Program-made: the position numbers and the translations under genes
Shown: in pieces, positions 10,664 through 31,560 of the stretch
Position numbering within the stretch: the stretch's first letter is position 1
How the letters are laid out: every line of letters begins with the position of its first letter
Assembly: GCF_039645975.1 (NCBI RefSeq)
Contig: NZ_CP147918.1
Coordinates: forward strand, 186,001 to 250,000
Direction: 5' to 3'
DNA from: Sulfurimonas sp. HSL-1716
GTDB taxonomy: Bacteria; Campylobacterota; Campylobacteria; Campylobacterales; Sulfurimonadaceae
Length of the DNA: 64,000 nucleotides
The notes under the pieces: model-generated
Seen by the model: the letters and a program-made list of their open reading frames with translations, nothing else
Told to the model about the DNA's origin: nothing
Database searches by the model: none

Positions 10664-10666
10664 TTT

Positions 10667-11701
10667 ATGAGTCTATTAAATATAAAAGAGAGATATGTTT
10701 TCTCCAGATATCTTAATGAGCTAAATAGAGAGATCGAAGCTTTTCGTCAAGCAGATGGAGAGTTTATTTTATATGGTTTCGGGATAGTAGGCGAGTATAT
10801 ATACTCTAAAATATCGGAGAAGATTTCTAGTATCGTGGATATGAGATATTTGGAAATTTCAGATCTTACGGGTTTTGAGAGAGTATATGCCCCGACAAAA
10901 CTACCGTATCTCGAACATAACAAAATCATCGTGACTGTTTTGGGTCGGGAAGAGAAGATTATCGACTATCTTATCAATGAACTGAACATTGATAAAGACA
11001 GGATATCGGTCATTAAAATAGGGAAGCAGTTTTCCAAGGTGGGGTATGAAAATATCTTTTCAAATGCAAATTACGCACCATGGAAGATAGATAACAGTTT
11101 CTTTGAGACTTTCGAGATCATTTCGACTCATACCCTTGTCGATATTTATAAGGCTTATGAGTTATGGGAATTAGTTCAACAAACCTCTAAACTTGCAGAA
11201 GGAAGTCTTATAGAGGTTGGTGTATGGAGGGGCGGAACCGGTACACTCATAGCAAAGCGGGCTCAAGATTGCGATATACGTGAGCATATATATCTATGCG
11301 ATACTTTTTCAGGTGTCGTAAAGTCCAGTGAGCATGATACATATTACTTCGATGGAGAACATGCAGATACTAGTATAGAGTATGTTGAAGATTTAATACG
11401 TAAGTTGGATTTGAAAAATGTCGAAATATTGACAGGTATCTTTCCTGATGATACATCTTTTGTAGTTAAAGATAAGAAATTTCGATTTTGTCATATAGAT
11501 GTAGATGTATATAAGTCGGCGATAGATATTGTAGATTGGATATGGGAAAGATTGGTAGTCGGGGGTATGATAGTCTTTGATGATTACGGTTTTGAGTCTT
11601 GTGACGGAATTACAAAGTTTGTAAATGAACAAAGACAATTGACTGACAGAATGGTTATATATAATCTTAACGGGCATGCCATAGTTATTAAGATTTCCTA
11701 A
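10667..11701 (+). CDS. TylF-like O-methyltransferase with N-terminal shared module
   Basis: Two-domain protein. Residues ~20-125 are the shared module, here at the N-terminus rather than the C-terminus (FILYGFGIVGEY, VTVLGREEKIIDYL). Residues ~140-344 are a TylF/CmcI-type methyltransferase: SLIEVGVWRGGTG is the SAM loop, YLCDTFSGV follows, and FCHIDVDVYKS plus GGMIVFDDYG provide the metal-binding aspartates of this family. TylF is macrocin O-methyltransferase; relatives methylate sugar hydroxyls in glycan clusters. Start ATG has GAGG upstream. The stop codon overlaps the stop of the convergent HAD gene (TAA 11699-11701 against TAG on the other strand), leaving no room for a terminator. Confidence 0.83.
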   Translation: MSLLNIKERYVFSRYLNELNREIEAFRQADGEFILYGFGIVGEYIYSKISEKISSIVDMRYLEISDLTGFERVYAPTKLPYLEHNKIIVTVLGREEKIIDYLINELNIDKDRISVIKIGKQFSKVGYENIFSNANYAPWKIDNSFFETFEIISTHTLVDIYKAYELWELVQQTSKLAEGSLIEVGVWRGGTGTLIAKRAQDCDIREHIYLCDTFSGVVKSSEHDTYYFDGEHADTSIEYVEDLIRKLDLKNVEILTGIFPDDTSFVVKDKKFRFCHIDVDVYKSAIDIVDWIWERLVVGGMIVFDDYGFESCDGITKFVNEQRQLTDRMVIYNLNGHAIVIKIS

Positions 11702-14013
11702 AAACAGATGATACGAATCTCTTTTGATAGATTTGAAAGCTTTGCAGAGATCTCTTTTGAAAAGGCAACGGATGCGATCAAAAAATTTGATTCTCCTTTT
11801 AAAAGCGCTTGTTTTGCAGTGATGACCTCATAGTTATAAAGAGTGAAGTTCCCGTTCTCCGCTTTTGAATCTATGAGATAGTTGATCTTTATGCCCCGTC
11901 TTAACAGTTCGGGCATGACCAATAATAGAAAATCTCCCGTGCCGTAGATAGAGAGAGATCTGAGCGAACCGTTACTGTCGATTTGAAGCAATATGTTCTC
12001 CAATGCAAAATCATTTATGTTTTGTTTGTATATATATCTGTTTTGCTGAATATACTTGATGTCTGTTTTTCCTGCAGCACCTTGTGGCCATGGCAGTTCA
12101 TCGAAGTATCTGGACAGGTCGTCATAAAAATCATTCATGACATTTTCAAGACCGTTGCGATTTAAAAAATCTAAACCTCTTTTATCGATTATTTTCTCTG
12201 TATTTTCCGCGGTATAGTTGAGCTCAAGAGGCAGGTCTCCAAGTTGTTGTATCTCCATGTATGTCGGAAAGTCTACTATTCTTGACAGCAGTTTTAAGAT
12301 ATATGATTGTTCATACTGCAATTCGTTTGAACCGTACTTTTGTATCACTTCAAAATACGCGTCTATGCCGGCATCAAAAGCGTTTATGATCGATCGATAT
12401 TCTTGGGATAGAGAGTTTTCGCTCAGAATAGGGATGATCTGATGATCATGTTTCTCAAAAGAGATAGTGGTATTCTCTTCGCCGTTAAATAGAAATTCAA
12501 AAATATCGGGCGATCTTCTAAACAGCTGCGTATTTCTGTAAGTCTCATTCGTAAGCGGCAGGAAAGGAAAGAGTCTTGTCTGTACTCTTTTTTCAAATGC
12601 GTCCTCGGAGATATAAAAAAGAGCATGCAGCAACGTGACGTTGTGTTTTAAAAAGCCGTCTATAATCCCTTGAACCGTCCCTGAACCGCCAAAATCGAGC
12701 AGCATAGACCCTTTGGTTATCTTTAGCTGTTTGAGATACTGGCTAAAGATGCGTTTTTCTTTTTGAATATTGAGTCTGATAACCTCTTTTTTATCTGCCA
12801 GATCATTTTGTATCTTTTCTAAGGTGTCATTGTCCAGGTCAGATATAAAAACACTAGAGTAAGTTTTTAATTGCGTATTGTCAAGATCAAGTTTAAAGAT
12901 CTTGTAAAAATCGTTCACGGACAATTTTCGGAAATTAAAGAAGGTCAGATCATTAATAGCGATATTGTCTTCATCGAGGGTTAAAAGATAGGTGGCAACC
13001 CTTGAAGCGTAGATATGGTCAAGAGAGAGATCAAGACCGTTTTGCTGCAGCAAAATATTTATATATTTATTGAATATTCTTCCTTCTCTCATGATGCTGT
13101 ATATTTTTTTAATATTGTTTTTCTTTGCCGTATCTATGACCCAGCTGCTAAACGAATGCAGTAAAGGTCCTCCTGCAAAAGCACCGAAATTATAATAAAA
13201 CCTCTCTTTTTCACCCTCATACGGATTTAAGAGGGTTGTTAAAATCCTAAGCGGGACGATCTTGGCGGGATGCGTGAACTTTGTGTAGTAGTTTTCGTGT
13301 CGGAGCATACTTTTCATATAGTGGTCAGCATCATATAAAAGGGTGGCTATGCCAAGAGCGTTCGCCATTGTAAAATCAGTATGCTGGTTATCTCCTATGT
13401 GGAGCATTTCATGGGAGCGTATCTGAAGTCGGGAGAGAACCTCTAAATAGAGTGCACCTGTATGTTTGCTTTTATTAAACTCTGAAGATATGAACAGATC
13501 GCTGATAAATGTTTTGTGTTTAAGCTTGCTAAGGGCAATTTTTCCGATATCGCTTCTACTAAGATACATATCTGAGATCAGTATGATCTGTTTGTTATGG
13601 TCATGTGCAATTTTAATCCATCTGTCAAGTTGGTGATTTACAAAGAGCGATCTTTTTTCTTCATGAAGTTCGAGCTTTATGATTTTTAAACGTTGTTTTT
13701 TTGTCAAATAGCTGAATTCATCATATATCTCATCGATTGCAACGGCGTCTTTTTTCAATTTTTTCTTGGCAGATTTTTGCGCTGCAATCCGAAAGTTTGT
13801 AAATGTGTGTTCATCTTGAAAAATATTTTTGACATAGGGATCTCTTCCAACTGCCAAGAAGATCTCTTCGTGGTTTAGGCTTTCTCGAAATACAAGAGTT
13901 TCAAAAATATCAAATGACACTACTTTAATATCAGGATCTTGTAAAAGCTCCAAAAATCTTTTTTCAACGGTGCTGCTGCTGCAAAGAGAAATAAATTTTT
14001 TGTTAGAGTTCAT
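11698..14013 (-). CDS. Large HAD-superfamily protein of the glycan cluster
   Basis: About 771 aa from the ATG at 14013; an upstream ATG at 14061 would overlap the sulfotransferase gene by 59 bases and is less likely. The N-terminal third is a HAD phosphatase-like domain: FDIFETL (motif I, with Asp nucleophile), LISDMYLS (motif II) and HIGDNQHTD (motif IV). The middle ~400 residues are not assigned; they include a GGSGTVQG loop. The final ~90 residues resemble the shared nucleotide-binding module of neighbouring proteins (LSIYGTGDF) but lack GREEEI. Very large HAD proteins of this type occur in polysaccharide loci without known reaction. It ends the minus-strand operon and overlaps the sulfotransferase gene by 11 bases. 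Confidence 0.7.
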   Translation of the reverse strand: MNSNKKFISLCSSSTVEKRFLELLQDPDIKVVSFDIFETLVFRESLNHEEIFLAVGRDPYVKNIFQDEHTFTNFRIAAQKSAKKKLKKDAVAIDEIYDEFSYLTKKQRLKIIKLELHEEKRSLFVNHQLDRWIKIAHDHNKQIILISDMYLSRSDIGKIALSKLKHKTFISDLFISSEFNKSKHTGALYLEVLSRLQIRSHEMLHIGDNQHTDFTMANALGIATLLYDADHYMKSMLRHENYYTKFTHPAKIVPLRILTTLLNPYEGEKERFYYNFGAFAGGPLLHSFSSWVIDTAKKNNIKKIYSIMREGRIFNKYINILLQQNGLDLSLDHIYASRVATYLLTLDEDNIAINDLTFFNFRKLSVNDFYKIFKLDLDNTQLKTYSSVFISDLDNDTLEKIQNDLADKKEVIRLNIQKEKRIFSQYLKQLKITKGSMLLDFGGSGTVQGIIDGFLKHNVTLLHALFYISEDAFEKRVQTRLFPFLPLTNETYRNTQLFRRSPDIFEFLFNGEENTTISFEKHDHQIIPILSENSLSQEYRSIINAFDAGIDAYFEVIQKYGSNELQYEQSYILKLLSRIVDFPTYMEIQQLGDLPLELNYTAENTEKIIDKRGLDFLNRNGLENVMNDFYDDLSRYFDELPWPQGAAGKTDIKYIQQNRYIYKQNINDFALENILLQIDSNGSLRSLSIYGTGDFLLLVMPELLRRGIKINYLIDSKAENGNFTLYNYEVITAKQALLKGESNFLIASVAFSKEISAKLSNLSKEIRIICF

Positions 14014-14791
14014 TTTGCTGCTCTTTGAATGAAAGTAGTGTCTCATAAGTCGAAGTGACATCGCTTTGGTCGAAGATAGCTCTGGCTTTGTCTGACCACA
14101 AAATCTCTTTATCCACGTAGACGGGTTCGTTTACGGTTTTCGTTTTGTTCTCTTCATTGATGATTTCGTCATACAGATTGTCCATATCTGCAGCCGTAGT
14201 ATCTAATTTGAACAGATCGATGATCTTTTGCAAGATTTTTAAACCCTCCTCTTTGTTCAAAAACTCTTTAAAATTCAAGATATAAAGATTCGCATCGTTG
14301 GGTAAGGTTTTTGTCGCTATCTTATTGTAGAAATTATGCATCTCGCGGAAGATATTTTCCGTATGGATCAGATTTTTTTGCAGATAGTGTTCAAAGGCCA
14401 GAGTATCGTCTTTGATGACCTCTTTTGATACCCACTGAATATCATCTCTTCTAAACCTAAAATCGATGAACTCAGATTCTACGACCTCTTTTGGATCCCT
14501 GATCGAGAGGAGAACATTGAGATTTTGCCATTGGTCTTTTCTAAAATGAAAAGGTGTCATATGACCGAACAAAAAGCTTCCCTCTGCTATCTTATCCAGC
14601 AGTTGATCTGAAGGAGATTCTTTTGACTGCCTGCTCGGAGACGATATATTATCGTTCATGCCGGCAGCTTTCGTATCGAGGTACTTACCGGGCTTGATAT
14701 GATAACCCGTGTTATGGACTCCTGCTTTTTCCAAAAGAACGGCTAAAAGATATGTACCGGCTTTTGGAACGGTGTATATGTAGTATTTCAT
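14003..14791 (-). CDS. Sulfotransferase-like protein
   Basis: The N-terminus YIYTVPKAGTYLL (residues 4-16) is the 5'-phosphosulfate-binding loop of PAPS-dependent sulfotransferases (PKxGTxxL), and the central LLSIRDPKEVVESEF is the 3'-phosphate-binding motif (R-D-P-x-x-x-x-x-S). Length (262 aa) fits Sulfotransfer_1/3. It would transfer sulfate from PAPS to a glycan hydroxyl, or act in a related P-loop reaction. The ATG overlaps the GT2 stop (ATGA). PAPS-dependent glycan sulfation is uncommon in Campylobacterota, so this is an informed family call and not a proven activity. Confidence 0.75.
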   Translation of the reverse strand: MKYYIYTVPKAGTYLLAVLLEKAGVHNTGYHIKPGKYLDTKAAGMNDNISSPSRQSKESPSDQLLDKIAEGSFLFGHMTPFHFRKDQWQNLNVLLSIRDPKEVVESEFIDFRFRRDDIQWVSKEVIKDDTLAFEHYLQKNLIHTENIFREMHNFYNKIATKTLPNDANLYILNFKEFLNKEEGLKILQKIIDLFKLDTTAADMDNLYDEIINEENKTKTVNEPVYVDKEILWSDKARAIFDQSDVTSTYETLLSFKEQQNEL

Positions 14792-16149
14792 TTGATGTTC
14801 AGTTCTTTAAAGAGAGTCGTAAACTTATGTTGCAACACAGGTTTTGTGATGTTGTCGAACATGGTCATAAAAGATCCGTAGCTTTGAACATTTATCTTAT
14901 CGGCATCGTCTGCGATACAGTTTCCAAAAGCGTCTATGTATGCACCGCACTCATCGTAATCTTTATAATTGGTTATATGCTCCACGCTTTGAATGACCAT
15001 GTCATACTCTGACAGGTCGCCGATCTCTTTGGTCGCATATGCATTGTCTATATTATCCAGGATCGATGAGACGTATTCAAACTCTAAGTATTTTGCCAAA
15101 ACGGTTATTTTAGCATCCGTATGCATTCTGATATTGACGATTGTCTGTTGAAAGTCCACGCTGTCGATGTTGTCTATGATCAAAATATCCTGTTTTGTCG
15201 AGGAGAGCTCATATATCTTGTTGGCCGCTTCTTTTTTCGGGTATATTCCACTCCACTGCGCACCGAGTCTTTTAGCATAGGCATCGTCTATGCCTATAAG
15301 CATAGAGCGGACCGAACTTGTTTGACCTTTGAGATTGGCAAAGAACATCATCTTGCTTATCTTGCTGCTGACTTCGTTGATAAAATGTTCAAGCTTGTCG
15401 GGCGAGATGTTCTTGAGAAAAAAACGCGTCATGTTCCTGTAATAATAATAGTGATACATCGTATTGGTAGCTATTTTTGCGCCGCCTTTATGCCAAACGA
15501 GGGAATCTTTAAAAGCCACGATCTTATACCCTAAGTCTTTCACCCGTGTACACCAGTCGATATCATCCAAATAGATAAAATAATCTCTGTCAAAAATACC
15601 GGCTTTTTGTAAAACTTCACCGGTAGTCATAAGGCAGCAAGCAGGTACGTAATCACACTCGATCTGTTGGGGGATAATTGGATTTTCAATGTTAAAATCT
15701 TTATAATTAAGTTTTAGGATATAGTTTTCCCAATCAAGCATAGCGCCTACTTCTTGTACGTTTTGAGGATTATCCATCTGAAGGATGGTAGAACCGGCTA
15801 CTCCGATTGAGCTGTCGTCATTGAGATGCTTGATTAAATTTATGAAATTGTTTTTTTCCACTTTTGTGTCATTATCGAGTAAGCTGACATATCGGTATCC
15901 ATGATCAAGAGCATACTGCATCCCTTTTGCAAAACCGCCAGCACCTCCACTGTTCTCGTTGTTTCGTATTAAAATCACATCGGGAAAATGTTTTTCGATC
16001 ATATCCGCACTGCCGTCGTTTGAAAGATTGTCGACGACAATGATATCTTTGGAATAGTTTTCAAATACCGCATTTGAAATGGAGTGTAAACACTCTTTTA
16101 AGTATTCTACTTTATTGTAATTGCATATTACTATCGCTAAATCTTTCAC
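14788..16149 (-). CDS. GT2 glycosyltransferase, GlfT/rhamnosyl-like, with C-terminal extension
   Basis: GT-A fold family 2 enzyme. AIVICNYNK (residues 5-13), VDNLSNDGS, NSGGAGGFAKGM (~67-78) and SLLDNDT (~90-96, the D-x-D) are the pattern of galactofuranosyl- and rhamnosyl-transferases. FDRDYFIYLDDIDWCTR carries the acceptor-site acidic residues. The GT domain ends near residue 300. The remaining ~150 residues begin with a Rossmann-like strand (ILIIDNIDS) and have no recognised family. Start is GTG overlapping the upstream GT2 stop (GTGA). UDP-galactopyranose mutase two genes upstream makes a galactofuranose donor plausible. Confidence 0.8.
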   Translation of the reverse strand: MKDLAIVICNYNKVEYLKECLHSISNAVFENYSKDIIVVDNLSNDGSADMIEKHFPDVILIRNNENSGGAGGFAKGMQYALDHGYRYVSLLDNDTKVEKNNFINLIKHLNDDSSIGVAGSTILQMDNPQNVQEVGAMLDWENYILKLNYKDFNIENPIIPQQIECDYVPACCLMTTGEVLQKAGIFDRDYFIYLDDIDWCTRVKDLGYKIVAFKDSLVWHKGGAKIATNTMYHYYYYRNMTRFFLKNISPDKLEHFINEVSSKISKMMFFANLKGQTSSVRSMLIGIDDAYAKRLGAQWSGIYPKKEAANKIYELSSTKQDILIIDNIDSVDFQQTIVNIRMHTDAKITVLAKYLEFEYVSSILDNIDNAYATKEIGDLSEYDMVIQSVEHITNYKDYDECGAYIDAFGNCIADDADKINVQSYGSFMTMFDNITKPVLQHKFTTLFKELNIK

Positions 16150-17108: not shown

Positions 17109-18249
17109 CGGCAAATCTTTCTTCGAACACTTCCAATGCGCGCAATACGATGTCGTCCATATCGTAGTATTTATACTCCGCCAGACGCCCTACGAGAGTG
17201 AGATTTTTGAAGCTTTGCGCATACTTTTTATACTCTTCATAGCGTTTTTGATTTTCATCCGTGAAGATCGGATAGTAAGGTGTGTTCTTTCCGTAGACGA
17301 ACTCTTGCGGATACTCTTTTGCTATGGTCGTTGATTCGTGTTTTGCGTCATACATCTTTTTAAATTCGGTGATACGGGTATAATCATAATCGTTAGGATA
17401 GTTCGTCGTCGTGGCATTTTGAAAGGAATCCGTTTCGTGGTTTTCAAACACCAGCTCTATCGAACGGTAGGGAAGCGTGCCGAATCTAAAATCAAATAGC
17501 TCATCGATCATTCCCGTAAAGACGACTTCACCCTCAAGGAGGCGATCTTCAAATATAAAGTTCTCACCCTCTATGCGCAAGATGTCTTTGAACTCCGTGT
17601 TAAGGCGTATCTCTATATTTTCATGAGAAAGCATGTTCTCAAAAAGCTTTGCATATCCCTCTTGGGGCATCGCCTGAAATGGGTCGTGGAAATATCTGTC
17701 GTCTTTGCTGATGGCTACGGGAACCCTTGCGCTCACCGCAGGGTCAAGCTCTTCGATCTTTTTGCCCCACTGTTTTGCGGAGTAGTGCAAAAAGATCTTT
17801 TCGTAAATAAAATCAGCGATGAATCTGAGATCTTTGTCGGCTGTCTTTTGAAGTTCCAGGATCGTGACTTTTTTTCCGTAACCATAGGTTTCTACCAGGT
17901 TTTTTTCGATCGATTCGGCCATGAAACGGGGGAAAAGCTTGTGAAGGGTGTTGAGGTTAAAAGGGATCGGAACATAGTGTCCGTCTATGAATCCTTCTAC
18001 TTTATGATGGTAATTATGCCATGAGGTGAACTGACTAAGAAAAGTCCATACTTTTTGACTGTCGGTATGAAAAAGGTGCGGACCGTAGTTATGGATGAGA
18101 ATTCCGTGTTCATCGATGCTGTCAAAACAGTTTCCGCCGATATGGGGGCGTTTGTCTATGATCAAAACTTTTTTGTTCTGCCGGGTTGCCAGTTTGTGAG
18201 CTAGGACGCTGCCCGCAAATCCTGCTCCGACTATGATGACGTCATACAT
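17101..18249 (-). CDS. glf: UDP-galactopyranose mutase
   Basis: Flavoenzyme that interconverts UDP-galactopyranose and UDP-galactofuranose, supplying Galf for surface polysaccharides. The whole 382-aa protein reads as Glf: FAD-binding VGAGFAGS at residues 7-14, HIGGNCFD at ~36-43, the YGPHLFHT stretch at ~55-62 and, near the C-terminus, LVGRLAEYKYYDMDD, which contacts flavin and substrate. It is followed by two GlfT-like glycosyltransferases with overlapping frames and preceded by pseI (8-base overlap). The combination implies the cell makes both Galf and pseudaminic acid from one transcript. Confidence 0.95.
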   Translation of the reverse strand: MYDVIIVGAGFAGSVLAHKLATRQNKKVLIIDKRPHIGGNCFDSIDEHGILIHNYGPHLFHTDSQKVWTFLSQFTSWHNYHHKVEGFIDGHYVPIPFNLNTLHKLFPRFMAESIEKNLVETYGYGKKVTILELQKTADKDLRFIADFIYEKIFLHYSAKQWGKKIEELDPAVSARVPVAISKDDRYFHDPFQAMPQEGYAKLFENMLSHENIEIRLNTEFKDILRIEGENFIFEDRLLEGEVVFTGMIDELFDFRFGTLPYRSIELVFENHETDSFQNATTTNYPNDYDYTRITEFKKMYDAKHESTTIAKEYPQEFVYGKNTPYYPIFTDENQKRYEEYKKYAQSFKNLTLVGRLAEYKYYDMDDIVLRALEVFEERFADA

Positions 18250-19258
18250 TGATATTCTCCCATGAAAGCGGTGTGCCTGCCTTTATATCGGTTAGTGCAA
18301 TTTTACCCAAAATCTCTTCATAGTGTTTTGGATGCAGCCCGTCGCCCGGACGGATGCTTTTGATGTTCTCTTTTGTAAAGCTTTCGCCTTTTTTGATGTC
18401 GCGGCTGACATAGAGGCTTCTGGCGTATTTTTTGGATTTGTCGTCATATTTTACGTGTCCCAGCATCTTTTCGACGTTTCGCACGCTTTGCACCATCTCG
18501 CGCAGCTGAGAGGGCGAGAGTGAGAAGGCGCCATCGGGCGTTTCTATGTTTTCATCGGGGGTGAAATGTTTTTCTATCACTCTCGCACCGAGTGCCACCG
18601 AGGCGATGACCGCGTCGTTGCCAAGCGTATGATCGGAAAGTCCGACCTCCGCAGCGAATCGCTCTTTCATATCGGCGATGGTGAGCAGGTTCATGGATTC
18701 GGGTGCGGCGGGGTAGGCGCTTGTACATTTTAAAAGCACGATATTTTCATTGCCCTCACTCTTGCAGGCAGCGACTGCGAGCTCGATGTCTAGGGTATCG
18801 CCGACACCCGTGGAGATGATGACGGGCTTGCCTTTGGAAGCGGCATAACGGATAAGCGGGATGTCCGTTATCTCAAAGGAGGCTATTTTGTATGCGGGTA
18901 CTTCTATCTTTTCCAAGACATCGACCGCCTGCAGATCAAAAGGCGATGAAAAAAGCAAGATGCCCAGTTCGTCTGCATACTTCTTTAACGGTTTGTGCCA
19001 CTCATAAGGCATACATGCACGTTTGTAAAGGTCGTAAAGGTATTCGTCCTGCCACAGGTCACCCGCTTTGAACCTCTCCTCTTTGACATCAAGGGTAAGT
19101 GAATCCGGTGTGTAGGTCTGTAGTTTTACGGCGTCGCATCCCGCTTCATACGCGACTCTTACTCCCTTTTTTGCCAGTTCAAAATCTTGGTTGTGGTTTG
19201 CCGAGAGCTCTGCGATGATAAAGACTTTTTTGTCCGTGTCGTGTGTACCTATCTTCAT
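18242..19258 (-). CDS. pseI: Pseudaminic acid synthase PseI
   Basis: NeuB-family synthase that condenses phosphoenolpyruvate with 2,4-diacetamido-2,4,6-trideoxy-L-altrose to give pseudaminic acid. The N-terminal TIM barrel shows IIAELSANHNQ (residues 14-24), AVKLQTYTPD (~43-52), YKIASFEI and the VIEKHFTPD metal-site region; the C-terminal ~60 residues form the SAF/antifreeze-like domain (RSLYVSRDIKKGE). Length is normal (338 aa). The ATG overlaps the pseH stop (ATGA). Neighbouring pseH, pseG, pseC and pseB support PseI over legionaminic or sialic acid synthase. Confidence 0.93.
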   Translation of the reverse strand: MKIGTHDTDKKVFIIAELSANHNQDFELAKKGVRVAYEAGCDAVKLQTYTPDSLTLDVKEERFKAGDLWQDEYLYDLYKRACMPYEWHKPLKKYADELGILLFSSPFDLQAVDVLEKIEVPAYKIASFEITDIPLIRYAASKGKPVIISTGVGDTLDIELAVAACKSEGNENIVLLKCTSAYPAAPESMNLLTIADMKERFAAEVGLSDHTLGNDAVIASVALGARVIEKHFTPDENIETPDGAFSLSPSQLREMVQSVRNVEKMLGHVKYDDKSKKYARSLYVSRDIKKGESFTKENIKSIRPGDGLHPKHYEEILGKIALTDIKAGTPLSWENINV

Positions 19259-19776
19259 TCTTTCTCTCTTAAAAGCAGTTTTGATATCTTCGCATCCGCT
19301 CTTTTATAATCTTCATATGCGAGTTCATAACTTTTATAAAGTTCATGCTCCTCTTTTTCTTTGTAACCCAAAGAGAGGTTAAAGCGTATTGCTCTTGGAT
19401 TGTCGTGCATGATCTTGCATCTGAGAATCCTGTAATCTTTTTCGTTAAAAAGATAATCGTGAAACAGCGTGACTATCTTGTACGGCACGAGCGAGTTCTG
19501 CTTTGAAGCGTCGTAAAGGTAAAATCCGGTCTCTACGCTTTCACCGCGCTTGTTGAACCAGATAAGCCCGATGGGTTTCTCTTTGACTCGGATAACGAAA
19601 TACTCATCCTCTTTTTTTGCCAAAGAGGCGAACCACGCTTCTTGCTGCTCTTGCGTGATGTGGCTTTGATCGAGTGCGTAGCGCTTTACTTCATCGCTGT
19701 TTCGCCAAAAGCGTACCGTTTCGATATCTTTGTGTTCGAGGGGCGTGAGTGCTATGTCAAAACCTTTAAGCGTCAA
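19255..19776 (-). CDS. pseH: GNAT N-acetyltransferase PseH
   Basis: GNAT-fold acyltransferase matching PseH, which N-acetylates the 4-amino group of UDP-4-amino-4,6-dideoxy-AltNAc. DIETVRFWRNS near the N-terminus, the ETGFYL strand and NPRAIRFNLSLGYKE (GNAT motif B) are visible in 173 aa. Start is TTG 19776 with AAAGG five bases upstream, overlapping the ACP gene by 11 bases. Because an ACP and a KAS III-like gene lie immediately upstream, the acyl donor in this organism could be an acyl-ACP and not acetyl-CoA; that is inference. It is followed by pseI. Confidence 0.85.
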   Translation of the reverse strand: MTLKGFDIALTPLEHKDIETVRFWRNSDEVKRYALDQSHITQEQQEAWFASLAKKEDEYFVIRVKEKPIGLIWFNKRGESVETGFYLYDASKQNSLVPYKIVTLFHDYLFNEKDYRILRCKIMHDNPRAIRFNLSLGYKEKEEHELYKSYELAYEDYKRADAKISKLLLREKE

Positions 19777-19990
19777 AGCCCGCCTTTGTCAGGATATCTT
19801 TTATGCTCACGCAGTTTTCAAGTTCGTCTATCTCCACGGACGCGCCTATTTCGTCAAATACACTCAGTGCACCGAGCATCGCAAGCGAATCCCATTCAGG
19901 GATATCGCACAGCAGTTCGTCCGGGTTTAAAGGGCGGTCAAGCTGTACCTCTTCGGCGAGGCGGATCAAGAATTCTTCTTCACTCATCAT
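19766..19990 (-). CDS. Acyl carrier protein
   Basis: A 74-aa acidic helical protein with EWDSLAMLG; the serine at about residue 35 in the DSL motif is the 4'-phosphopantetheine attachment site. It starts at ATG 19990 (a second ATG follows directly) and overlaps both the KAS III gene and pseH. It is one of two ACPs that flank the KAS III gene, distinct in sequence from each other and from housekeeping AcpP (which is much better conserved). Role inferred: carrying an acyl or glyceryl group destined for a sugar. Confidence 0.85.
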   Translation of the reverse strand: MMSEEEFLIRLAEEVQLDRPLNPDELLCDIPEWDSLAMLGALSVFDEIGASVEIDELENCVSIKDILTKAGFDA

Positions 19991-21060
19991 GCTTCCTTTT
20001 TGTAGATTAGAGTACGCGGTGCGTAGATATTGTCCGTTTGGATCACGGCTCCGCCCCAGCTTAGACCTATGCCGAATCCCGCAACGGCGATAGTGAGTTT
20101 CTTTGCGCTAAACTCCTCGTTTAAAAAGCCGTTGATAGTCCCGGGGATGGAAGCTGCGTTTTGGTTGCCGTAGATCTTTCCCGTTTCCATCGGCACTTTT
20201 TGCGGTGCCACTTTGAGGCGCGAGGCGATGGTTTTTAGGATGTAAGGATTTGCTTGATGCAGTACGAAATAGTCTATCTCGTCGTTTTGCAGTCCTGCAG
20301 ATTCCACGACCTCTTTGATGAGCGGAGGCACGGTCTTGATGGCGAAGTTAAACACCTCCTTACCGTCCATAAAGAGATCTTCGTCGCGTCTTATACCGCC
20401 GTCTTCGCGAAGTTTTGCAACAAGCGTTTCATGTGTCGTGGGAGTTCGCGCTCCGCCTGCGGGGATAATGAGATGCTTGTATCCGCTTCCGTCGCTGTAG
20501 AGCGAGAAAAAACTTTTTGGTGCATCTTTTTTCTCGATGACTATCGCACTTCCCGCATCGCCCATCAAGGGAGTGAATATCTTATCCCGTTCCCCCGAGA
20601 AGTAGCTGTTGACGTCGCCTACGCACAAAAGTACTTTTTTCATGCCGCTGTTGACGTAGCTGTAGGCTGTAAAGAGTCCGTAGATAAAACCGCTGCATCC
20701 GAGGTTGATGTCAAAAGCTCCGCAGCTCTTCGGCAGTCCCAGACGATCTTGCATGATGATGGCGGTGGAGGGCGCTTTGAAGTCGGGACTCTGCGTCACG
20801 AACAAAAGCGCTTCTATCTCCTCTTTTTTGATGTCGGTGTTGGTAAAGATATCTTCCGCACTTTGCACGCACAGGTCGCTCGTACACACGTCTTCATCGG
20901 CGATGTAGCGGGTTTTCAGCCCTATGCTTCTTTGAAGTCTGCTAAATGAGTCGTCGTCAAACCCGAAACGCTCTTTTTCATCTTCAAGGTCGATGATGTT
21001 GCCACCCACCGTGGTCGCCATCGCCGTGACGGCGATGTTCTCAAAACTGATCTGACTCAT
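19987..21060 (-). CDS. KAS III (FabH-like) 3-oxoacyl-ACP synthase family protein
   Basis: Thiolase-fold enzyme of the FabH family, about 357 aa from ATG 21060 (AAAGGA seven bases upstream; TTG 21066 is an alternative). The catalytic triad is intact: Cys in NLGCSGF at about residue 122, His in LHQANP at about 268 and Asn in GNQNAAS about 20 residues later. The C-terminal GFGIGLSWG is also canonical. It lies between two ACP genes and next to an FkbH-like gene, so it more likely makes or transfers a special acyl group for glycan modification than starts housekeeping fatty acid synthesis. Such FabH paralogues can also act as acyl-transferases. Confidence 0.88.
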   Translation of the reverse strand: MSQISFENIAVTAMATTVGGNIIDLEDEKERFGFDDDSFSRLQRSIGLKTRYIADEDVCTSDLCVQSAEDIFTNTDIKKEEIEALLFVTQSPDFKAPSTAIIMQDRLGLPKSCGAFDINLGCSGFIYGLFTAYSYVNSGMKKVLLCVGDVNSYFSGERDKIFTPLMGDAGSAIVIEKKDAPKSFFSLYSDGSGYKHLIIPAGGARTPTTHETLVAKLREDGGIRRDEDLFMDGKEVFNFAIKTVPPLIKEVVESAGLQNDEIDYFVLHQANPYILKTIASRLKVAPQKVPMETGKIYGNQNAASIPGTINGFLNEEFSAKKLTIAVAGFGIGLSWGGAVIQTDNIYAPRTLIYKKEA

Positions 21061-21331
21061 CGGCAATCCTTTGCTCTAAAAATTTTTCCAGCGTCACTAT
21101 CGTTTTAAAGGGAGTGTTCTTGGCGTCCATGCTTTCTTCGCTTGCCACGGCGATGTAATTTCCGGTGGCATCTTCGAGCGAGGATTCAAGCTCCAAGATC
21201 AGATCAAGCGTGCCCAGCGAATCGAGCAGCTCAAAGAGCGGCGTTTCGTCGTTCACGTTTTGCAGCTCTTCTATATTCAGCTCTTCGTTGATGTTTTTTA
21301 CAGCTTTTAAAATAATCTCTTTAAGATCCAT
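21041..21331 (-). CDS. Acyl carrier protein
   Basis: A 96-aa acidic protein with LLDSLGTLDL; the serine at about residue 38 is the phosphopantetheine site. It overlaps the 3' end of the FkbH-like gene by 11 bases and the KAS III gene by about 20 bases. In polyketide and glycan clusters, an ACP directly beside an FkbH-like HAD protein usually receives a glyceryl unit from 1,3-bisphosphoglycerate; this gene is the best candidate for that carrier. The second ACP (19766-19990) may receive the KAS III product. Assignments of which ACP does which are inference. Confidence 0.85.
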   Translation of the reverse strand: MDLKEIILKAVKNINEELNIEELQNVNDETPLFELLDSLGTLDLILELESSLEDATGNYIAVASEESMDAKNTPFKTIVTLEKFLEQRIADESDQF

Positions 21332-22877
21332 ACTCTACCTTTATACTTTCATTAACATCGGCAAAACGCTTGAATTTATAATGTTTGCAATCGCCGTTTT
21401 TTACCGCTTCAAAACCGTTTTTCTCATAGAACTCTTCGACAAGCGCGTTTTTGTCCGTTTTGCAATAAGATGCGGTGAGATCTTGATGTCTGCGGGTGAT
21501 GAAGTTCAAGACGCTCTCTTCGATCCCGCGTCCGAGCACGCGGCAGCTCATCAAAAAGGTATCTATATCGCCGTCCTTGATGATGACTACCCCGACGATC
21601 CCCATGTCACCGAACTTGTCTTTGACACTGAAGTCGTACACGAAACCGCTTTGCATCAGCTCTTTTACAAAGGAGAGTTCGTAGCGTTTGGTGGTAAGAT
21701 TGAACTGGTTCGTTTTGTTAATCAGCTGCGTAATGCGCTCTATGTTCTTTTCGTTGTTGCATGTGACACCGATGCGGATGCCAAGCGAAGCGATGAAATC
21801 CTCTTTGCTGGGCATCTTTGAGCTTAGATCCAGACGCTCTTTCTCATCTTTGTAAAGTGTCGTCTTTTTTGCATCCTCAGCGCTTATGTGCAGAGTTTTT
21901 AAAGCGGTGATCTTCTTTAGCGTTTCGATGTTTAAAAGCGGGTTTGCCGGGTTCATTTTGTAACATTCTATCCCCATACGCTGGCGCATCTCTGCTAACT
22001 CCGCGTCGGAATCGTCGATGAAGATGATACCCGTTTTGGTGAGGCCGAGCTCCTTTAAAACGGCATTTAGGTTTTCGCTTTTGGAGTTCCAGTTCACTGC
22101 GTGCGCGACAAAATCATCAAGGCCAAGCGGCATCGTTTTTGTTTCAAACACTTCCTGCACGGCGTTTTCATCGTTCTTGCTGAGTAAAATAAGGATGATC
22201 CCGCTGTTTTTGAGCTCCAGCAGATACTCTTGAAACTTCGTGTAGACGATGCCGGGGTAGTTGTTGTCTATTTTGATCCCTCCCAGTCCGTCTTCGCCGA
22301 TGATCCCGCCCCAGAGCGTGTTGTCGGCATCGACGGCTATCGCTTTGATGCGCGGAGCATCAAAAAGTGAGATAAGTTCTTGTATCTTTGCACTGAGAAG
22401 TTCTGTCGCAAGTTTTGTAAAGGGTGTCTGAAAAAGATAACGGTTCCTCTGGCTTATGAGGTTTTTTGTTCCGTGTTCTTTGCACATTGTGTAAAAATCC
22501 AAAACTGCAAGACCGTTTAGCTCCTCTTGAAGCGAAGCGATCTTGCAGTTTAGCTTTGCAAGTTCGAGTTCTTGGCGTATTTTGTCGGGAGTGAAAATAT
22601 CGTTAAACTCTTCGTTTAGCGTGTTTATGATGATCTTTGCGCTGTTGTTCATCCTAAAATGAAGCAGAGCATTTTTTAAAACAGCGAAGCTTTCATCGTG
22701 ATCATCGGCAAAAAAACTGCTGTCCAAAAGCAGTATTAACACTTGTTCATCTACCTTCGCATAGAGCGTATCGATAATCGTATCAAGCGGATAGTGCGTA
22801 AGAGAATACTCTTTTAAGAATCTGTCAAAGGGCTTTGTGACGGTATTTGACAAGAATGCGATGCTATTTGTATTCAA
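21321..22877 (-). CDS. FkbH-like HAD-IIIC family protein (glyceryl-ACP synthase-like)
   Basis: The HAD-IIIC signature AVDADNTLWGG lies at residues 181-191, with motif II/III regions LILLSKND and FIDDSDAE following. The C-terminal ~150 residues look like the GNAT-like domain typical of FkbH proteins. In well-studied family members the enzyme dephosphorylates 1,3-bisphosphoglycerate and loads the glyceryl group onto an ACP. Total length 518 aa fits FkbH proteins with an N-terminal ~150-residue extension. Start is TTG 22877, supported by AAAGGAG seven bases upstream. It overlaps pseG and the ACP gene, so it is embedded in the pseudaminic acid operon. Confidence 0.85.
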   Translation of the reverse strand: MNTNSIAFLSNTVTKPFDRFLKEYSLTHYPLDTIIDTLYAKVDEQVLILLLDSSFFADDHDESFAVLKNALLHFRMNNSAKIIINTLNEEFNDIFTPDKIRQELELAKLNCKIASLQEELNGLAVLDFYTMCKEHGTKNLISQRNRYLFQTPFTKLATELLSAKIQELISLFDAPRIKAIAVDADNTLWGGIIGEDGLGGIKIDNNYPGIVYTKFQEYLLELKNSGIILILLSKNDENAVQEVFETKTMPLGLDDFVAHAVNWNSKSENLNAVLKELGLTKTGIIFIDDSDAELAEMRQRMGIECYKMNPANPLLNIETLKKITALKTLHISAEDAKKTTLYKDEKERLDLSSKMPSKEDFIASLGIRIGVTCNNEKNIERITQLINKTNQFNLTTKRYELSFVKELMQSGFVYDFSVKDKFGDMGIVGVVIIKDGDIDTFLMSCRVLGRGIEESVLNFITRRHQDLTASYCKTDKNALVEEFYEKNGFEAVKNGDCKHYKFKRFADVNESIKVEYGS

Positions 22878-23925
22878 TTATCAACTCCTTTGCCACACCA
22901 TTTTTTTTAAAGCTGTATCTGTCTAAGACTCTTTTGATCTTGTAAGGGTGGTATTGTACAAAATTAAGCGCTTTTTTTAAAGCTGCAGGCGTAAAAACCT
23001 CTATGATGTTTTTAAGGTCTTGTCTTTTTAGTATATCGACGGTTCGTGCCTGATTTGAAGCGCATTTTATGGCGATAAACGGTTTTTTTAGGGCGAATGT
23101 CTCTAAAAGAGAGGTGCTCGCACTCGTGATGATGAGATCATGTGCTCTCATAAGCTCTGCCATCTCCTTTTCATCTATGACAAGCTCTTTGTCTCTGATC
23201 TTTAAAAAGGTGATCTTTTGGTTTGCAGAGGTCGTAACAATGGTCACGGACAGAGTCTTTTCAAGCGATAGAAGATATTTTTTCACACGAAGAGAGAGAC
23301 CCAGCGGATCGCTTCCTCCAAGCGTTACAAGCACTTTTTTGTTTTTAAGAGAGTCAAGGGGAGTAAAACGGTTCTTATGAGATAAAAAATCATCTTTTAA
23401 AAGAGTGTATCTGGCTCCCGCAAGTATCTTTGTGTCTTTTAGATAGGAGTAGTCCTTTTCATCTGCGATAAAAGAGTGGTTTAAAACGATATCTGCACGA
23501 TGTTCCTTGAACTCGTCGTCAAACACTAAAACACGGCAGAGCTCTTTGAGCTTTGCTTCGCAGTTTATATCGACTCCGTAGTGATCGATGATGAAAAGGG
23601 AAGGCTTCAGCTCTTTAGCGATCTCTATGAGTTCGCTGCAATCCATACTGCTTACGATCCTGCGGGCAAACCCGTTTTGCTCTATGAGACGGTTTTGGTT
23701 TCCTTTGAGTTCTTGCGTGATGTAGGTGATAGAAAAATCATTTCTCAATCCTTCTGCCAAAAGAAGCGTGCGCATAAGATGACCGAGACCGATGGCCGAA
23801 GAAGAATCCATTCTTATCAATATCACGCCCACAGGAGCAAAGTCCCTTTGTGCTGCGCTGGCCGCTGAGGCACTAAAGCTTGCCTCTTGCAAGGCAGATA
23901 AATTACTGTTTTTTTTGTTCGACAT
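22864..23925 (-). CDS. pseG: UDP-sugar hydrolase PseG
   Basis: GT-B-like hydrolase that removes UDP from UDP-2,4-diacetamido-2,4,6-trideoxy-altropyranose, giving the substrate of PseI. RMDSSSAIGLGHLMR (about residues 38-52) holds the G-x-G-H catalytic histidine; VTLGGSDP and ITSASTSLLET are the C-terminal nucleotide-binding motifs. Compared with usual PseG, which starts directly before this strand, the protein has an extra N-terminal ~33 residues rich in Ser and Ala if ATG 23925 is used. That ATG lacks a clear Shine-Dalgarno; GTG codons just before the RMDSS strand are possible later starts. It overlaps the cytidylyltransferase gene by 23 bases. Confidence 0.9.
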   Translation of the reverse strand: MSNKKNSNLSALQEASFSASAASAAQRDFAPVGVILIRMDSSSAIGLGHLMRTLLLAEGLRNDFSITYITQELKGNQNRLIEQNGFARRIVSSMDCSELIEIAKELKPSLFIIDHYGVDINCEAKLKELCRVLVFDDEFKEHRADIVLNHSFIADEKDYSYLKDTKILAGARYTLLKDDFLSHKNRFTPLDSLKNKKVLVTLGGSDPLGLSLRVKKYLLSLEKTLSVTIVTTSANQKITFLKIRDKELVIDEKEMAELMRAHDLIITSASTSLLETFALKKPFIAIKCASNQARTVDILKRQDLKNIIEVFTPAALKKALNFVQYHPYKIKRVLDRYSFKKNGVAKELIIEYK

Positions 23926-24619
23926 GCTTGTTCATTTCATAGATGTAAAGGTTTTGTTCCAGGGTCTCGATGAGCTTTTCGTAGCTGAAGTCCGTTTCGC
24001 AGTTCAGTTTTTCGTACAGCTCGGTTATTGCTTTGTAGTCATCTTCCTCGTCGAGTGTCAGACGGTATCTTGAATGGTCGTGAGAGTTTTTGTAAGACGC
24101 GCACTTCACGTTTTCTTTGATGTAGGGCGTGACATGTTCTTTGTGATGCTCTGTTATCGCATTCTCATAAGCTTCTTTGAGGTGGGCAAAGGAGAACACC
24201 TCCGTATCCATCCCGCGCGGAAAACCGCTCTGTTGACAGGCACAGACATACCGGGCATCGCTGTTTTTGTAAAACTCGATCGTCTTTTTTACGATCTGTG
24301 CGTCAATGAGCGGGCAGTCGCTTGTACAGCGCACGATGATGCTCTTTTCATCCGCGCCGAATTTTGAAGCACTGTGGTAGTATCGTGCCAAGACATCATC
24401 CGTATCGCCTTGGAAATATTTTACATGCAGACGTTTACAAAGCTCGACTATGGGCATCTGCGAGCCGTCATCCGTGGTAGCTACGATGATGTTTTCTTTA
24501 AACTCCTCCAGACGAGAGAGCATCACTTCCAAAATCGTTTTGCCGCACAGGGGAAGCATTACTTTGGCTCTTAGTCTGGTGCTGGTCATGCGGGCTTGAA
24601 TGATGATATACAAATTCAT
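23903..24619 (-). CDS. spsF: SpsF-type cytidylyltransferase (probable CMP-pseudaminate synthetase)
   Basis: GT-A-like nucleotidyltransferase of the SpsF family: IIIQARMTSTRLRAKVM at residues 5-21 is the nucleotide-binding N-terminus (R-x-x-S-x-R-x-x-x-K), RCTSDCPLID at about 96-105 is the central metal/substrate motif, and RLTLDEEDD lies near the C-terminus. SpsF-like enzymes replace NeuA-type PseF in some pseudaminic acid pathways, notably in Bacillus, where they activate the sugar with CTP. No NeuA-type pseF is present in the window, which supports this role. A TATAAT box 7 bases before the ATG and no Shine-Dalgarno suggest a leaderless mRNA. Confidence 0.8.
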   Translation of the reverse strand: MNLYIIIQARMTSTRLRAKVMLPLCGKTILEVMLSRLEEFKENIIVATTDDGSQMPIVELCKRLHVKYFQGDTDDVLARYYHSASKFGADEKSIIVRCTSDCPLIDAQIVKKTIEFYKNSDARYVCACQQSGFPRGMDTEVFSFAHLKEAYENAITEHHKEHVTPYIKENVKCASYKNSHDHSRYRLTLDEEDDYKAITELYEKLNCETDFSYEKLIETLEQNLYIYEMNKHVEQKKQ

Positions 24620-24881: not shown

Positions 24882-26258
24882 ATGACGATACTTTTTCCGG
24901 ATGACGATCATATCGCCGCTTCTTATAACATTGAATACAGACAGGCAGAAATAAAACCCTCCGAAGCGATCTTAAAGCCCGAATTTCATTGGGAAGGCAA
25001 TCGCACTCATATGTATGGCACGGTTATCAAAAAAGAATCGGGGTATGAGATGTATTACCAGTGCGGAAATGCCCTTCGCATAGGGTATGCCATAAGCAAT
25101 GACGGCCTTGTATGGGAGAAACCTATGATAAACGCGGCCGATTTTAAGGCATCTGCTCATAAAGTGGTGCAGGCAAATGATACTCTTGAAGCCTCGGATG
25201 TGCCAAAGCTCGGCGAAGGACAGGAGATGACCAATCTTGCCGCGGGGTATCATATGCCAAGCGTCATTTACGAGCCTAAGTCCGAAAAGCCCTATAAGCT
25301 TTTTGCCTACGGCGAGGCAGGGTATAGAGCCCTTTACTCCAAAAACGGCAGACAGTTTTACGAATACGGGTACAATCCCGTCATCGAGCTTTTGGAGTTT
25401 CCTAACCGCTATACGAAAAAGATGTGGTACAGCGACGTAGCTCCCGCATACAAAGACGGCGATCTTTACAAAGCGATGATAAAGACCTATGAGATAGATG
25501 CCGATGGCAGAACCAGACGCTGTATAGGCTATAGTCAAAGCCGTGATTTTATCGGTTGGAGCAGTATCGAGACTGTATGGATTCCCGGTAAAGGCGAGGA
25601 TGATATTGCAAAAAAACGCGGATTTTTTTGGAGTGATTTTTACGGTTTGTGTCCGTTTGCTTACGGCAGCGGATATTTGGGATTTTTATGGCTTTTTGAG
25701 ATAGAAAAAGAGCTGCCCCGCGGTACGAATCAAGGAAAAATGGAGATATTTTTGGCTTACAGTCGTGACGGAAAATCATGGAGGCGCATAAGCGATGAAG
25801 CTTTTATCCCTTGGGATCTCAATTTTAGAGATGAGGGAGGAATGGTCACGACACCCTCAGCCCCGGTCTTTGAAGAAGATCATATCAAGCTCTATTATTC
25901 CGATTCCAACTTTGAACACGGATTGCATGAAAAAGATTTTACCAAAGTTATACAACAGCCCATATGGGTGACACGCTGCAGTATTGTGCAAAAAGAGCGG
26001 CTGGTGGGAGCTGCCTCGACGCAGGGGTGGCTGCAGACATGTTCTTTGAGTTTTTATGATCGCAGATTACGGCTCAACCTTGCATGTAAAAACGGCGAAG
26101 TGGTGCTGCGTTATCTAGTATCGGGTCATGAGGTGGCATCGCAGCGTGTAAAAGCCGTCGACGATACGGATCTGGTGATCAAGCCGGCTTATGAGGGGGA
26201 TGCGGTTTTACATATAAGTCTTGAAAACGCCGCTGTTTATGCGATAGAGCTTATCTGA
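24882..26258 (+). CDS. Glycosyl hydrolase-like five-bladed beta-propeller protein
   Basis: 458 aa, no signal peptide. Repeated blade-like strands with aromatic/acidic turns (GTVIKKESGYEMYYQ, IGYAISNDGLVWEKP, IEIFLAYSRDGKSWRR-type repeats) resemble the GH32/GH43/GH68 propeller superfamily used by glycosidases acting on sugars. SRDGKSW and SNDGLVW are the typical S-x-D-G-x-x-W blade motif. The last ~100 residues look like a beta-sandwich appendage. Substrate unknown; a cytoplasmic role in the glycan pathway or trimming of a sugar nucleotide is possible. It lies tail to tail with pseC, with one base between stops. AAGGAG lies 12 bases before the ATG. Confidence 0.6.
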   Translation: MTILFPDDDHIAASYNIEYRQAEIKPSEAILKPEFHWEGNRTHMYGTVIKKESGYEMYYQCGNALRIGYAISNDGLVWEKPMINAADFKASAHKVVQANDTLEASDVPKLGEGQEMTNLAAGYHMPSVIYEPKSEKPYKLFAYGEAGYRALYSKNGRQFYEYGYNPVIELLEFPNRYTKKMWYSDVAPAYKDGDLYKAMIKTYEIDADGRTRRCIGYSQSRDFIGWSSIETVWIPGKGEDDIAKKRGFFWSDFYGLCPFAYGSGYLGFLWLFEIEKELPRGTNQGKMEIFLAYSRDGKSWRRISDEAFIPWDLNFRDEGGMVTTPSAPVFEEDHIKLYYSDSNFEHGLHEKDFTKVIQQPIWVTRCSIVQKERLVGAASTQGWLQTCSLSFYDRRLRLNLACKNGEVVLRYLVSGHEVASQRVKAVDDTDLVIKPAYEGDAVLHISLENAAVYAIELI

Positions 26259-26259
26259 A

Positions 26260-28652
<2,393 letters not shown>

Positions 28653-30864: not shown

Positions 30865-31560
30865 TTAGCTTTTTTTGACTATTGCAAACTTTTGCGGGCG
30901 TATGGTTATATCTGTTATGCAGGCACCGTTTCTCATCTCCAGAATATTTTGGATCACGTCGGCTATATCTTCGGCCTCAAGCCTTTTGTCAAACTCGGCC
31001 GAAGGATTGAAACGAAGTTCGTCGAAAAACGAGGTGTCGGTCATATCGGGGTTTATGCTTACGACGTTTACTCCGCTTTTTCTTACCTCTTCAAAAAGAG
31101 ACTGGCTGAATGCTCTAAGACCGGTTTTCGTGGCCGTGTAGATTGCGGAGAACTTGGATGAACGCAACGCTTCGATGGAGGTTATGTTAAATATGATCCC
31201 CTGATTGAATTTTAAGACTTTAAGCAAGACGTTGCTTAAGATCATGGGAGCGTTGAGATTGAGTGCGACCATCTTGGATATGGTGTTTGTATCTATCTCT
31301 TCATACGGTTTAAAGACTCCAAAACCGGCGATGTTACAGAGAATGGATATAGAAGGATCCGTCTGCAGCAGGGGAATTATGGCGTTTAGTTCTATCTCGT
31401 CACTAAGGTCACAGCAAAGCATGCTGAAGTTCGGATGGTCGATGGCGTTCTTGTCTATGTTTCTGCTGATACCGATGACGTCGTATCCAAATTCCAAAAG
31501 TCTCAATGAGACGGCTTTTCCTATTCCGCTGCTTGCTCCGGTGATCACTGCAGTAGCCAT
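30865..31560 (-). CDS. Short-chain dehydrogenase/reductase
   Basis: Classical SDR of 231 aa: NAD(P)-binding TGASSGIG (residues 7-14), NIAGFG (~81-86, NAG-type motif), catalytic Ser in ITSIE and YTATK (~141-145, Y-x-x-x-K). Substrate cannot be predicted. Start ATG 31560 has AGAGGAAG upstream. It reads in the same direction as fliD, but the fliD sigma-28 promoter lies after its stop, so the two need not be co-regulated. Confidence 0.85.
   Translation of the reverse strand: MATAVITGASSGIGKAVSLRLLEFGYDVIGISRNIDKNAIDHPNFSMLCCDLSDEIELNAIIPLLQTDPSISILCNIAGFGVFKPYEEIDTNTISKMVALNLNAPMILSNVLLKVLKFNQGIIFNITSIEALRSSKFSAIYTATKTGLRAFSQSLFEEVRKSGVNVVSINPDMTDTSFFDELRFNPSAEFDKRLEAEDIADVIQNILEMRNGACITDITIRPQKFAIVKKS

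Follow-up and report, generated by a model that had tools for sequence, protein, structure and literature searches.

Tannerella and Campylobacter are known to make nonulosonic acids whose acyl groups derive from glycerate. Tannerella forsythia ATCC 43037 makes Pse5Am7Gra, which carries an N-glyceroyl group on C7 and also occurs in its CMP-activated form (PMC6388019); we calculated 683.19 for the [M-H]- ion of CMP-Pse5Am7Gra, the reported value being 683.2. The gene for the glyceroyl group "remains elusive", and the Gra genes are unassigned (PMC6120980, PMC6388019). In Campylobacter jejuni, the difference between the dimethylglyceric derivative and Pse5Ac7Ac is 74.0368, which by mass arithmetic is exactly the change from acetyl to dimethylglyceroyl, hence an exchange of the acyl group is suggested. 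The derivative is present in strain 11168, and it is missing both from strain 12664, where cj1302 (with an fkbH domain) is a pseudogene, and from strain 12661, which has no cj1301 (PMC7099621). As strains 12664 and 12661 differ in other genes too, the link of cj1301/cj1302 to dimethylglyceroyl is only suggestive; Cj1295 is also required for the derivative (PMC3068675). The literature searched held no description of the biochemistry of the Campylobacter form of this gene set.

Other described systems share some components with the locus considered here. The tetronate glycerate-utilisation operon (FkbH, ACP, a FabH-like protein, an acyltransferase and a dehydratase; for example, mad7/8/16/17/18) has its first three components in common with it. 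The methoxymalonyl-ACP operon (FkbG-K) was also considered as a candidate identity. The group II flagellar islands of Aeromonas (ACP, reductase, ligase, LuxE and LuxC; 376 Da pseudaminic acid) represent an ACP-based acyl supply within a pse island. The Aeromonas pseudaminic acid mass of 376.148 (PMC7874193) corresponds, by mass arithmetic only, to Pse5Ac7Ac with one acetyl replaced by dihydroxybutanoyl. Nothing on FkbH with O-antigen and acyl carrier protein was found in the literature searched.

The window, that is, the whole analysed stretch of 64,000 nucleotides from Sulfurimonas sp. HSL-1716, contains on its minus strand a flagellar glycosylation operon that adjoins fliD- and fliS-like genes. 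In the order of transcription, it comprises pseB and pseC, and then a cytidylyltransferase gene, pseG, fkbH, acp1, a KAS III gene, acp2, a pseH-like gene, pseI, glf and two GT2 genes; from the cytidylyltransferase through the two GT2 genes, neighbours overlap by between 4 and 26 bases. Inside the pseudaminic acid operon lies the cassette pseG-fkbH-acp-KASIII-acp-pseH-pseI (23925-18242, minus strand), with successive overlaps of 14, 11, 26, 4, 11 and 4 bases from pseG to pseI. The initial annotation, made from the sequence alone, had claimed an ACP/KAS III/ACP/FkbH-like cassette between pseI-pseH and pseG with all genes overlapping, and both this description and its coordinates held; its PseH held as a variant that falls below the equivalog cut-off.

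In pseudaminic acid synthesis PseB and PseC precede N4-acylation, PseH performs the acylation, and the acylated sugar then goes to PseG and PseI. Here pseB (27384..28391, minus strand), encoding the UDP-GlcNAc 4,6-dehydratase/5-epimerase that acts upstream of acylation, is 88-91% identical to PseB of the same genus, and the aminotransferase PseC (26260..27387, minus strand; TIGR03588, 474 bits, over the cut-off) makes the 4-amino group that gets acylated. The cassette-type UDP-sugar hydrolase PseG (22864..23925, minus strand) scores 193 bits with TIGR03590 (cut-off 153.6), and the pseudaminic acid synthase PseI of the cassette-type clade (18242..19258, minus strand) meets the TIGR03586 cut-off (462 bits vs 340). 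The pseF position is occupied by an SpsF/KdsB-like cytidylyltransferase (23903..24619, minus strand; PF02348 over the cut-off), which is not a TIGR03584 PseF, scoring 16 bits vs the cut-off of 205.7; several cassette loci encode a protein like it. Between pseC and the remaining pse operon lies a 458-aa gene of opposite orientation (24882-26258, plus strand), which had no match in the Pfam or NCBIfam searches and whose position is taken by other genes in relatives of the same genus. The glycan operon ends with a 787-aa protein (11698-14061, minus strand) with an N-terminal HAD domain; in several relatives, homologues sharing 32-37% identity are encoded after pseI. Elsewhere in the window, a 1011-aa protein (31972-35007, plus strand) with NMT1/THI5-like and SBP3 binding domains, PAS and GGDEF is probably a sensor diguanylate cyclase.

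Within the cassette, FkbH (21321..22877, minus strand), which consists of a HAD-IIIC domain and a GNAT-like C-terminal domain, is a member of TIGR01686 (245 bits vs the cut-off of 146.65). In the alignment of homologues, D183, D185, N186 and T187 (DxDNT) and the SCR motif are invariant, and the structural model (pLDDT 87) matches 3slr, MDP-1 and GNAT folds. By inference, this protein is a glyceryl-ACP synthase using 1,3-bisphosphoglycerate, an activity that has not been shown. Neither ACP scores in the Pfam search, and both have the phosphopantetheine DSL site: LLDSLG and WDSLAM. Acp1 (21041..21331, minus strand), directly after fkbH, is the predicted carrier loaded by FkbH, and acp2 (19766..19990, minus strand) is the predicted carrier of the KAS III product. 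The FabH-like KAS III (19987..21066, minus strand; the start is possibly ATG at 21060) has the Cys124-His270-Asn301 triad, invariant across 9 cassette homologues. Its best model is PRK12880 (NF009519), with a score of 270.7, short of the equivalog cut-off of 436. We rejected the possibility that the cassette is the housekeeping fatty-acid locus, since a distinct FabH with 37% identity to the cassette KAS III is encoded elsewhere in the genome. No reductase gene is present within the window cassette; we rejected an SDR at 30865-31560 as a candidate for it, as a 231-aa gene occupies the same place in genomes of the same genus without the cassette, and the SDR is therefore not linked to the cassette.

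The PseH-like GNAT (19255..19776, minus strand) scores 54.9 bits with TIGR03585 (cut-off 93.1), and the GNATs beside other ACP sets score 51.6 and 64.7, vs 152-153 bits, above the cut-off, for canonical PseH from the cassette-free genomes of the same genus. The Q/RxxGxG acetyl-CoA loop of GNATs is replaced by KQNSLVPY in the window protein. The GxG loop, or at the least one glycine of it, is kept in nearly all canonical PseH examined; of the first set, all 12 PseH genes that immediately adjoin an ACP lack both glycines, and this loss requires three changes on the PseH tree. A further GNAT from Lachnospiraceae (L272) retains one loop glycine. PseH keeps its canonical loop at two loci where an ACP lies no more than 6 kb away, and there each ACP has its own, other acyltransferase. 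In one genome (G087), which has canonical PseH, genes for an ACP, an AAC(3)-like acyltransferase and an uncharacterised protein of 426 aa lie close to pseI (L169, 957-3770), and this set could be a separate re-acylation system; a similar ACP is found in G082 (L163, 13800-14081).

The AlphaFold model of the window PseH is a confident GNAT (pLDDT 88). Its best match among solved folds, ahead of PseH itself, is FdhC (5ktc, with the 3-hydroxybutanoyl product; TM 0.84), a nucleotide-sugar 3-hydroxybutanoyl transferase (5kta/5ktc). FdhC also lacks the P-loop glycines, but it shares only about 20% identity with the PseH variant, its acceptor is dTDP-Fuc3N, and its donor is CoA. As loop-less FdhC has been solved with CoA, the loss of the loop suggests a non-acetyl donor, and not strictly an ACP donor. 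Thus, while the loss itself is directly observed, the donor is inferred, and from sequence and structure the window PseH is likely to transfer a non-acetyl group.

Two genomes of the same genus without the cassette (G006, G007) have PseC 81-83% identical to that of the window, vs 53-54% for PseI, 36-38% for PseG and about 26% or less for PseH, and PseI from cassette loci of other genera is 73-79% identical to the window one. In the PseI tree, a single clade of cassette loci is compatible with the data (p-AU 0.8) and monophyly of the genus is rejected (p 0.0003). The PseC tree is the reverse: the genus forms a clade (99), and the cassette clade is rejected (p 4e-8). The PseG tree behaves like the PseI one, with rejection of the genus clade (p 1.6e-5), and the PseB tree does not decide. 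PseI also scores about 430-466 bits in cassette loci vs about 490-520 in most others. Thus, the identities and the PseI, PseG and PseC trees show that PseI, PseG and PseH, and not PseC, have been exchanged within the genus together with the cassette. From this joint exchange one may infer that PseG and PseI are specialised for an altered substrate.

The initial annotation had proposed a survey of gene neighbourhoods for FkbH-ACP-KAS III adjacent to pseG/pseH, and such a survey yielded a conserved order in Sulfurimonadaceae and beyond. In the search of genome contigs for FkbH homologues, an alignment query worked and a single FkbH sequence matched nothing. FkbH was found in 35 of the 399 sampled Campylobacterales genomes. 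The order fkbH-acp-KASIII-acp is kept in genomes of the same genus, in other genera of Sulfurimonadaceae and in another family of the order (L176), and it is also present in the unrelated Methylobacterium, Massilia, Sphingopyxis, a Bacteroidetes MAG and Nitratifractor. As the same cassette gene order recurs at 40-90% identity in many genomes, the arrangement is not due to chance. Other Campylobacterales have FkbH with an ACP and a methyltransferase, and no KAS III in the stretch examined.

Almost all FkbH loci with sufficient flanks (58 of 61) have an ACP near fkbH. The second ACP tracks KAS III (20 of 24 loci with KAS III vs 1 of 37 without it; Fisher p 3e-11), as does an SDR reductase (17 of 24 vs 4 of 37; Fisher p 3e-6); these tests were not corrected for kinship and demonstrate association only. 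Where the cassette stands outside a pse operon, the next genes encode the SDR, often a VOC protein, and a PglD-like hexapeptide acyltransferase, and several such clusters also carry a DegT aminotransferase and a 4,6-dehydratase. Judging from these neighbours, the non-pse cassettes would supply the acyl group of a 4-amino sugar. Loci of the window type lack both the SDR and the hexapeptide enzyme, and the PseH-like GNAT directly follows acp2. The third, minimal arrangement is the contiguous fkbH-acp-GNAT-pseI cluster of Lachnospiraceae (L084, L250, L263, L272), which has no KAS III. Given these three arrangements, the core consists of FkbH, an ACP and a sugar N-acyltransferase, KAS III being optional. 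No fkbH was found beside pseI in any sampled Bacteroidales pseI locus.

These observations support the earlier proposal that an ACP-bound, glycerate-derived acyl group is placed on pseudaminic acid by an acyltransferase, perhaps PseH, and make PseH the likely transferase. The grounds are the exchange of PseH, PseG and PseI without PseC, the loop-less PseH, the minimal fkbH-acp-GNAT-pseI cluster, and the known N-glyceroyl and N-dimethylglyceroyl pseudaminic acids (PMC6388019, PMC7099621). Glyceryl loading is established for FkbH relatives in polyketide pathways. By inference from them, the cassette FkbH would load D-glyceryl from 1,3-bisphosphoglycerate onto ACP1; KAS III would move the glyceryl unit onto ACP2 or extend it; and the PseH variant, the predicted N4-acyltransferase, would take the acyl from ACP2 and attach it at the 4-amino position of UDP-4-amino-4,6-dideoxy-L-AltNAc. 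PseG, PseI and the cytidylyltransferase would then convert the acylated sugar to N7-acyl pseudaminic acid for the flagellum. It is likely that the cassette yields a thioester of a non-acetyl acyl group derived from glycerate and that the PseH variant attaches this acyl to the sugar 4-amino group, although neither the acyl nor the enzyme activities have been shown. The probable product is a pseudaminic acid in which the N7-acyl derives from glycerate and replaces acetyl, the N7 position being inferred and the glycan of the organism not known.

The choice between a glyceryl and an extended acyl group, both of which had been suggested, is not settled by the evidence, and the role of KAS III is not shown. 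The intact triad and the linkage of KAS III to the second ACP and the reductase favour condensation, that is, a C5 acyl formed with malonyl. Vice versa, the Campylobacter set, if it makes dimethylglyceroyl, has KAS III without chain extension, which favours simple transfer; we consider these two inferred roles to be evenly balanced. In a bolder reading, KAS III would condense glyceryl-ACP1 and malonyl-ACP2, giving a C5 polyhydroxy acyl; the cassette would thus be a miniature polyketide synthase that decorates a sialic-acid-like sugar; elsewhere, the cassette together with the reductase would yield a reduced C5 acyl for other 4-amino sugars. The calculated oxonium ions for this reading, which we consider less likely than not, are m/z 405.150 (keto) and 407.166 (reduced). 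For the other options, the calculated values are m/z 363.140 with glyceroyl, 361.161 with hydroxybutanoyl and 317.134 with acetyl alone.

Compared with the described systems, the proposed product of the cassette resembles that of the Tannerella pathway, where the CMP-activated sugar already carries the N-glyceroyl on C7; the difference is that the glyceroyl genes there are unassigned (PMC6120980). In Campylobacter jejuni, the flagellar glycosylation genes cj1299-cj1304, which we take to be ACP, methyltransferase, VOC "epimerase", FkbH, KAS III and ACP, likewise have FkbH, a PRK12880-type KAS III and an ACP adjacent to each other. One of our loci (L102) contains ACPs, two methyltransferases, VOC, FkbH, a PRK12880-type KAS III (574 on that model) and an ACP, and its FkbH and KAS III are, respectively, 33% and 35% identical to those of the window; its identification as the Campylobacter cj1299-cj1304-type set rests on gene order and the descriptions in PMC7099621. 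In contrast to the window, the Campylobacter set includes methyltransferases and VOC and is not part of a fused pseG-pseH-pseI operon. Cj1295 is needed there as well, which suggests that transfer takes a different route.

The Aeromonas group II islands, unlike the window, have neither FkbH nor KAS III. One genome (G009, locus L155) has a set of the Aeromonas kind together with PseI that groups with the cassette-type PseI of the window: ACP, SDR, AMP ligase, LuxE- and LuxC-like genes (10446-15480) are situated beside a loop-less PseH. By inference from this resemblance, the set may be an alternative acyl supply. Identity with the tetronate operon was rejected, as no Agg4-type acyltransferase or Agg5-type dehydratase was recognised in the operon and there is no polyketide partner near the cassette. 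Identity with the methoxymalonyl-ACP operon was rejected too, its two dehydrogenases and O-methyltransferase not being in the operon.

Three alternatives to the glycerate-derived acyl supply should be considered. The first, which is rather unlikely, is that KAS III bypasses glyceryl: acetoacetyl-ACP2 would be formed from acetyl-CoA and malonyl-ACP and yield 3-hydroxybutanoyl for PseH, with FkbH and ACP1 serving a separate O-acylation. The intact KAS III triad, the 3-hydroxybutanoyl transferase FdhC as the top fold of the PseH variant, and the second ACP and reductase tracking KAS III speak for it. Against it, FkbH, ACP1, KAS III and ACP2 are kept in order across unrelated genomes and contexts, the cassette has only one obvious acyltransferase gene, and that of the window is without a reductase gene.

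The second, unlikely alternative is that FkbH loads another three-carbon unit (for example, lactyl), or that the ACP comes to carry a tetronate-like ring formed by KAS III, hence the acyl would not be a plain glyceryl derivative. Some FkbH-like proteins are thought to load units other than glyceryl. FkbH, ACP and a FabH-like protein are indeed the first three genes of the tetronate operon (PMC7489565), but the later tetronate genes and the polyketide chain are absent, and the known related sugars bear glyceroyl or dimethylglyceroyl. The third, that the cassette serves another sugar or lipid, sits in the pse operon by chance and leaves PseH to use acetyl-CoA, gains some support from cassettes in other amino-sugar clusters of other bacteria, but is very unlikely given the sub-cut-off PseH with its lost CoA loop, the contiguity of fkbH-acp-GNAT-pseI in another phylum, and the fact that PseH, PseG and PseI were exchanged along with the cassette.

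Thus, that the cassette is the acyl supply for pseudaminic acid is well supported; it is assembled from known parts and does not imply a new kind of chemistry. The initial claim that no enzymatic source of glyceryl groups has been described agrees with PMC6120980 and PMC6388019 within the literature searched, with the qualification that cj1301/cj1302 (PMC7099621) had been known before as the Campylobacter homologue of the gene set. With the cassette, a candidate pathway can be named in full: FkbH, ACP, optional KAS III and modified PseH. It also provides a signature by which PseH enzymes that probably transfer a group other than acetyl may be recognised from sequence. A documented open question, the genetic source of the glyceroyl groups in Tannerella, becomes testable, including Tannerella ORFs previously set aside. 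If the glycerate-derived reading is right, an intermediate of glycolysis would become an unusual side group of a flagellar sugar in an environmental relative of Campylobacter.
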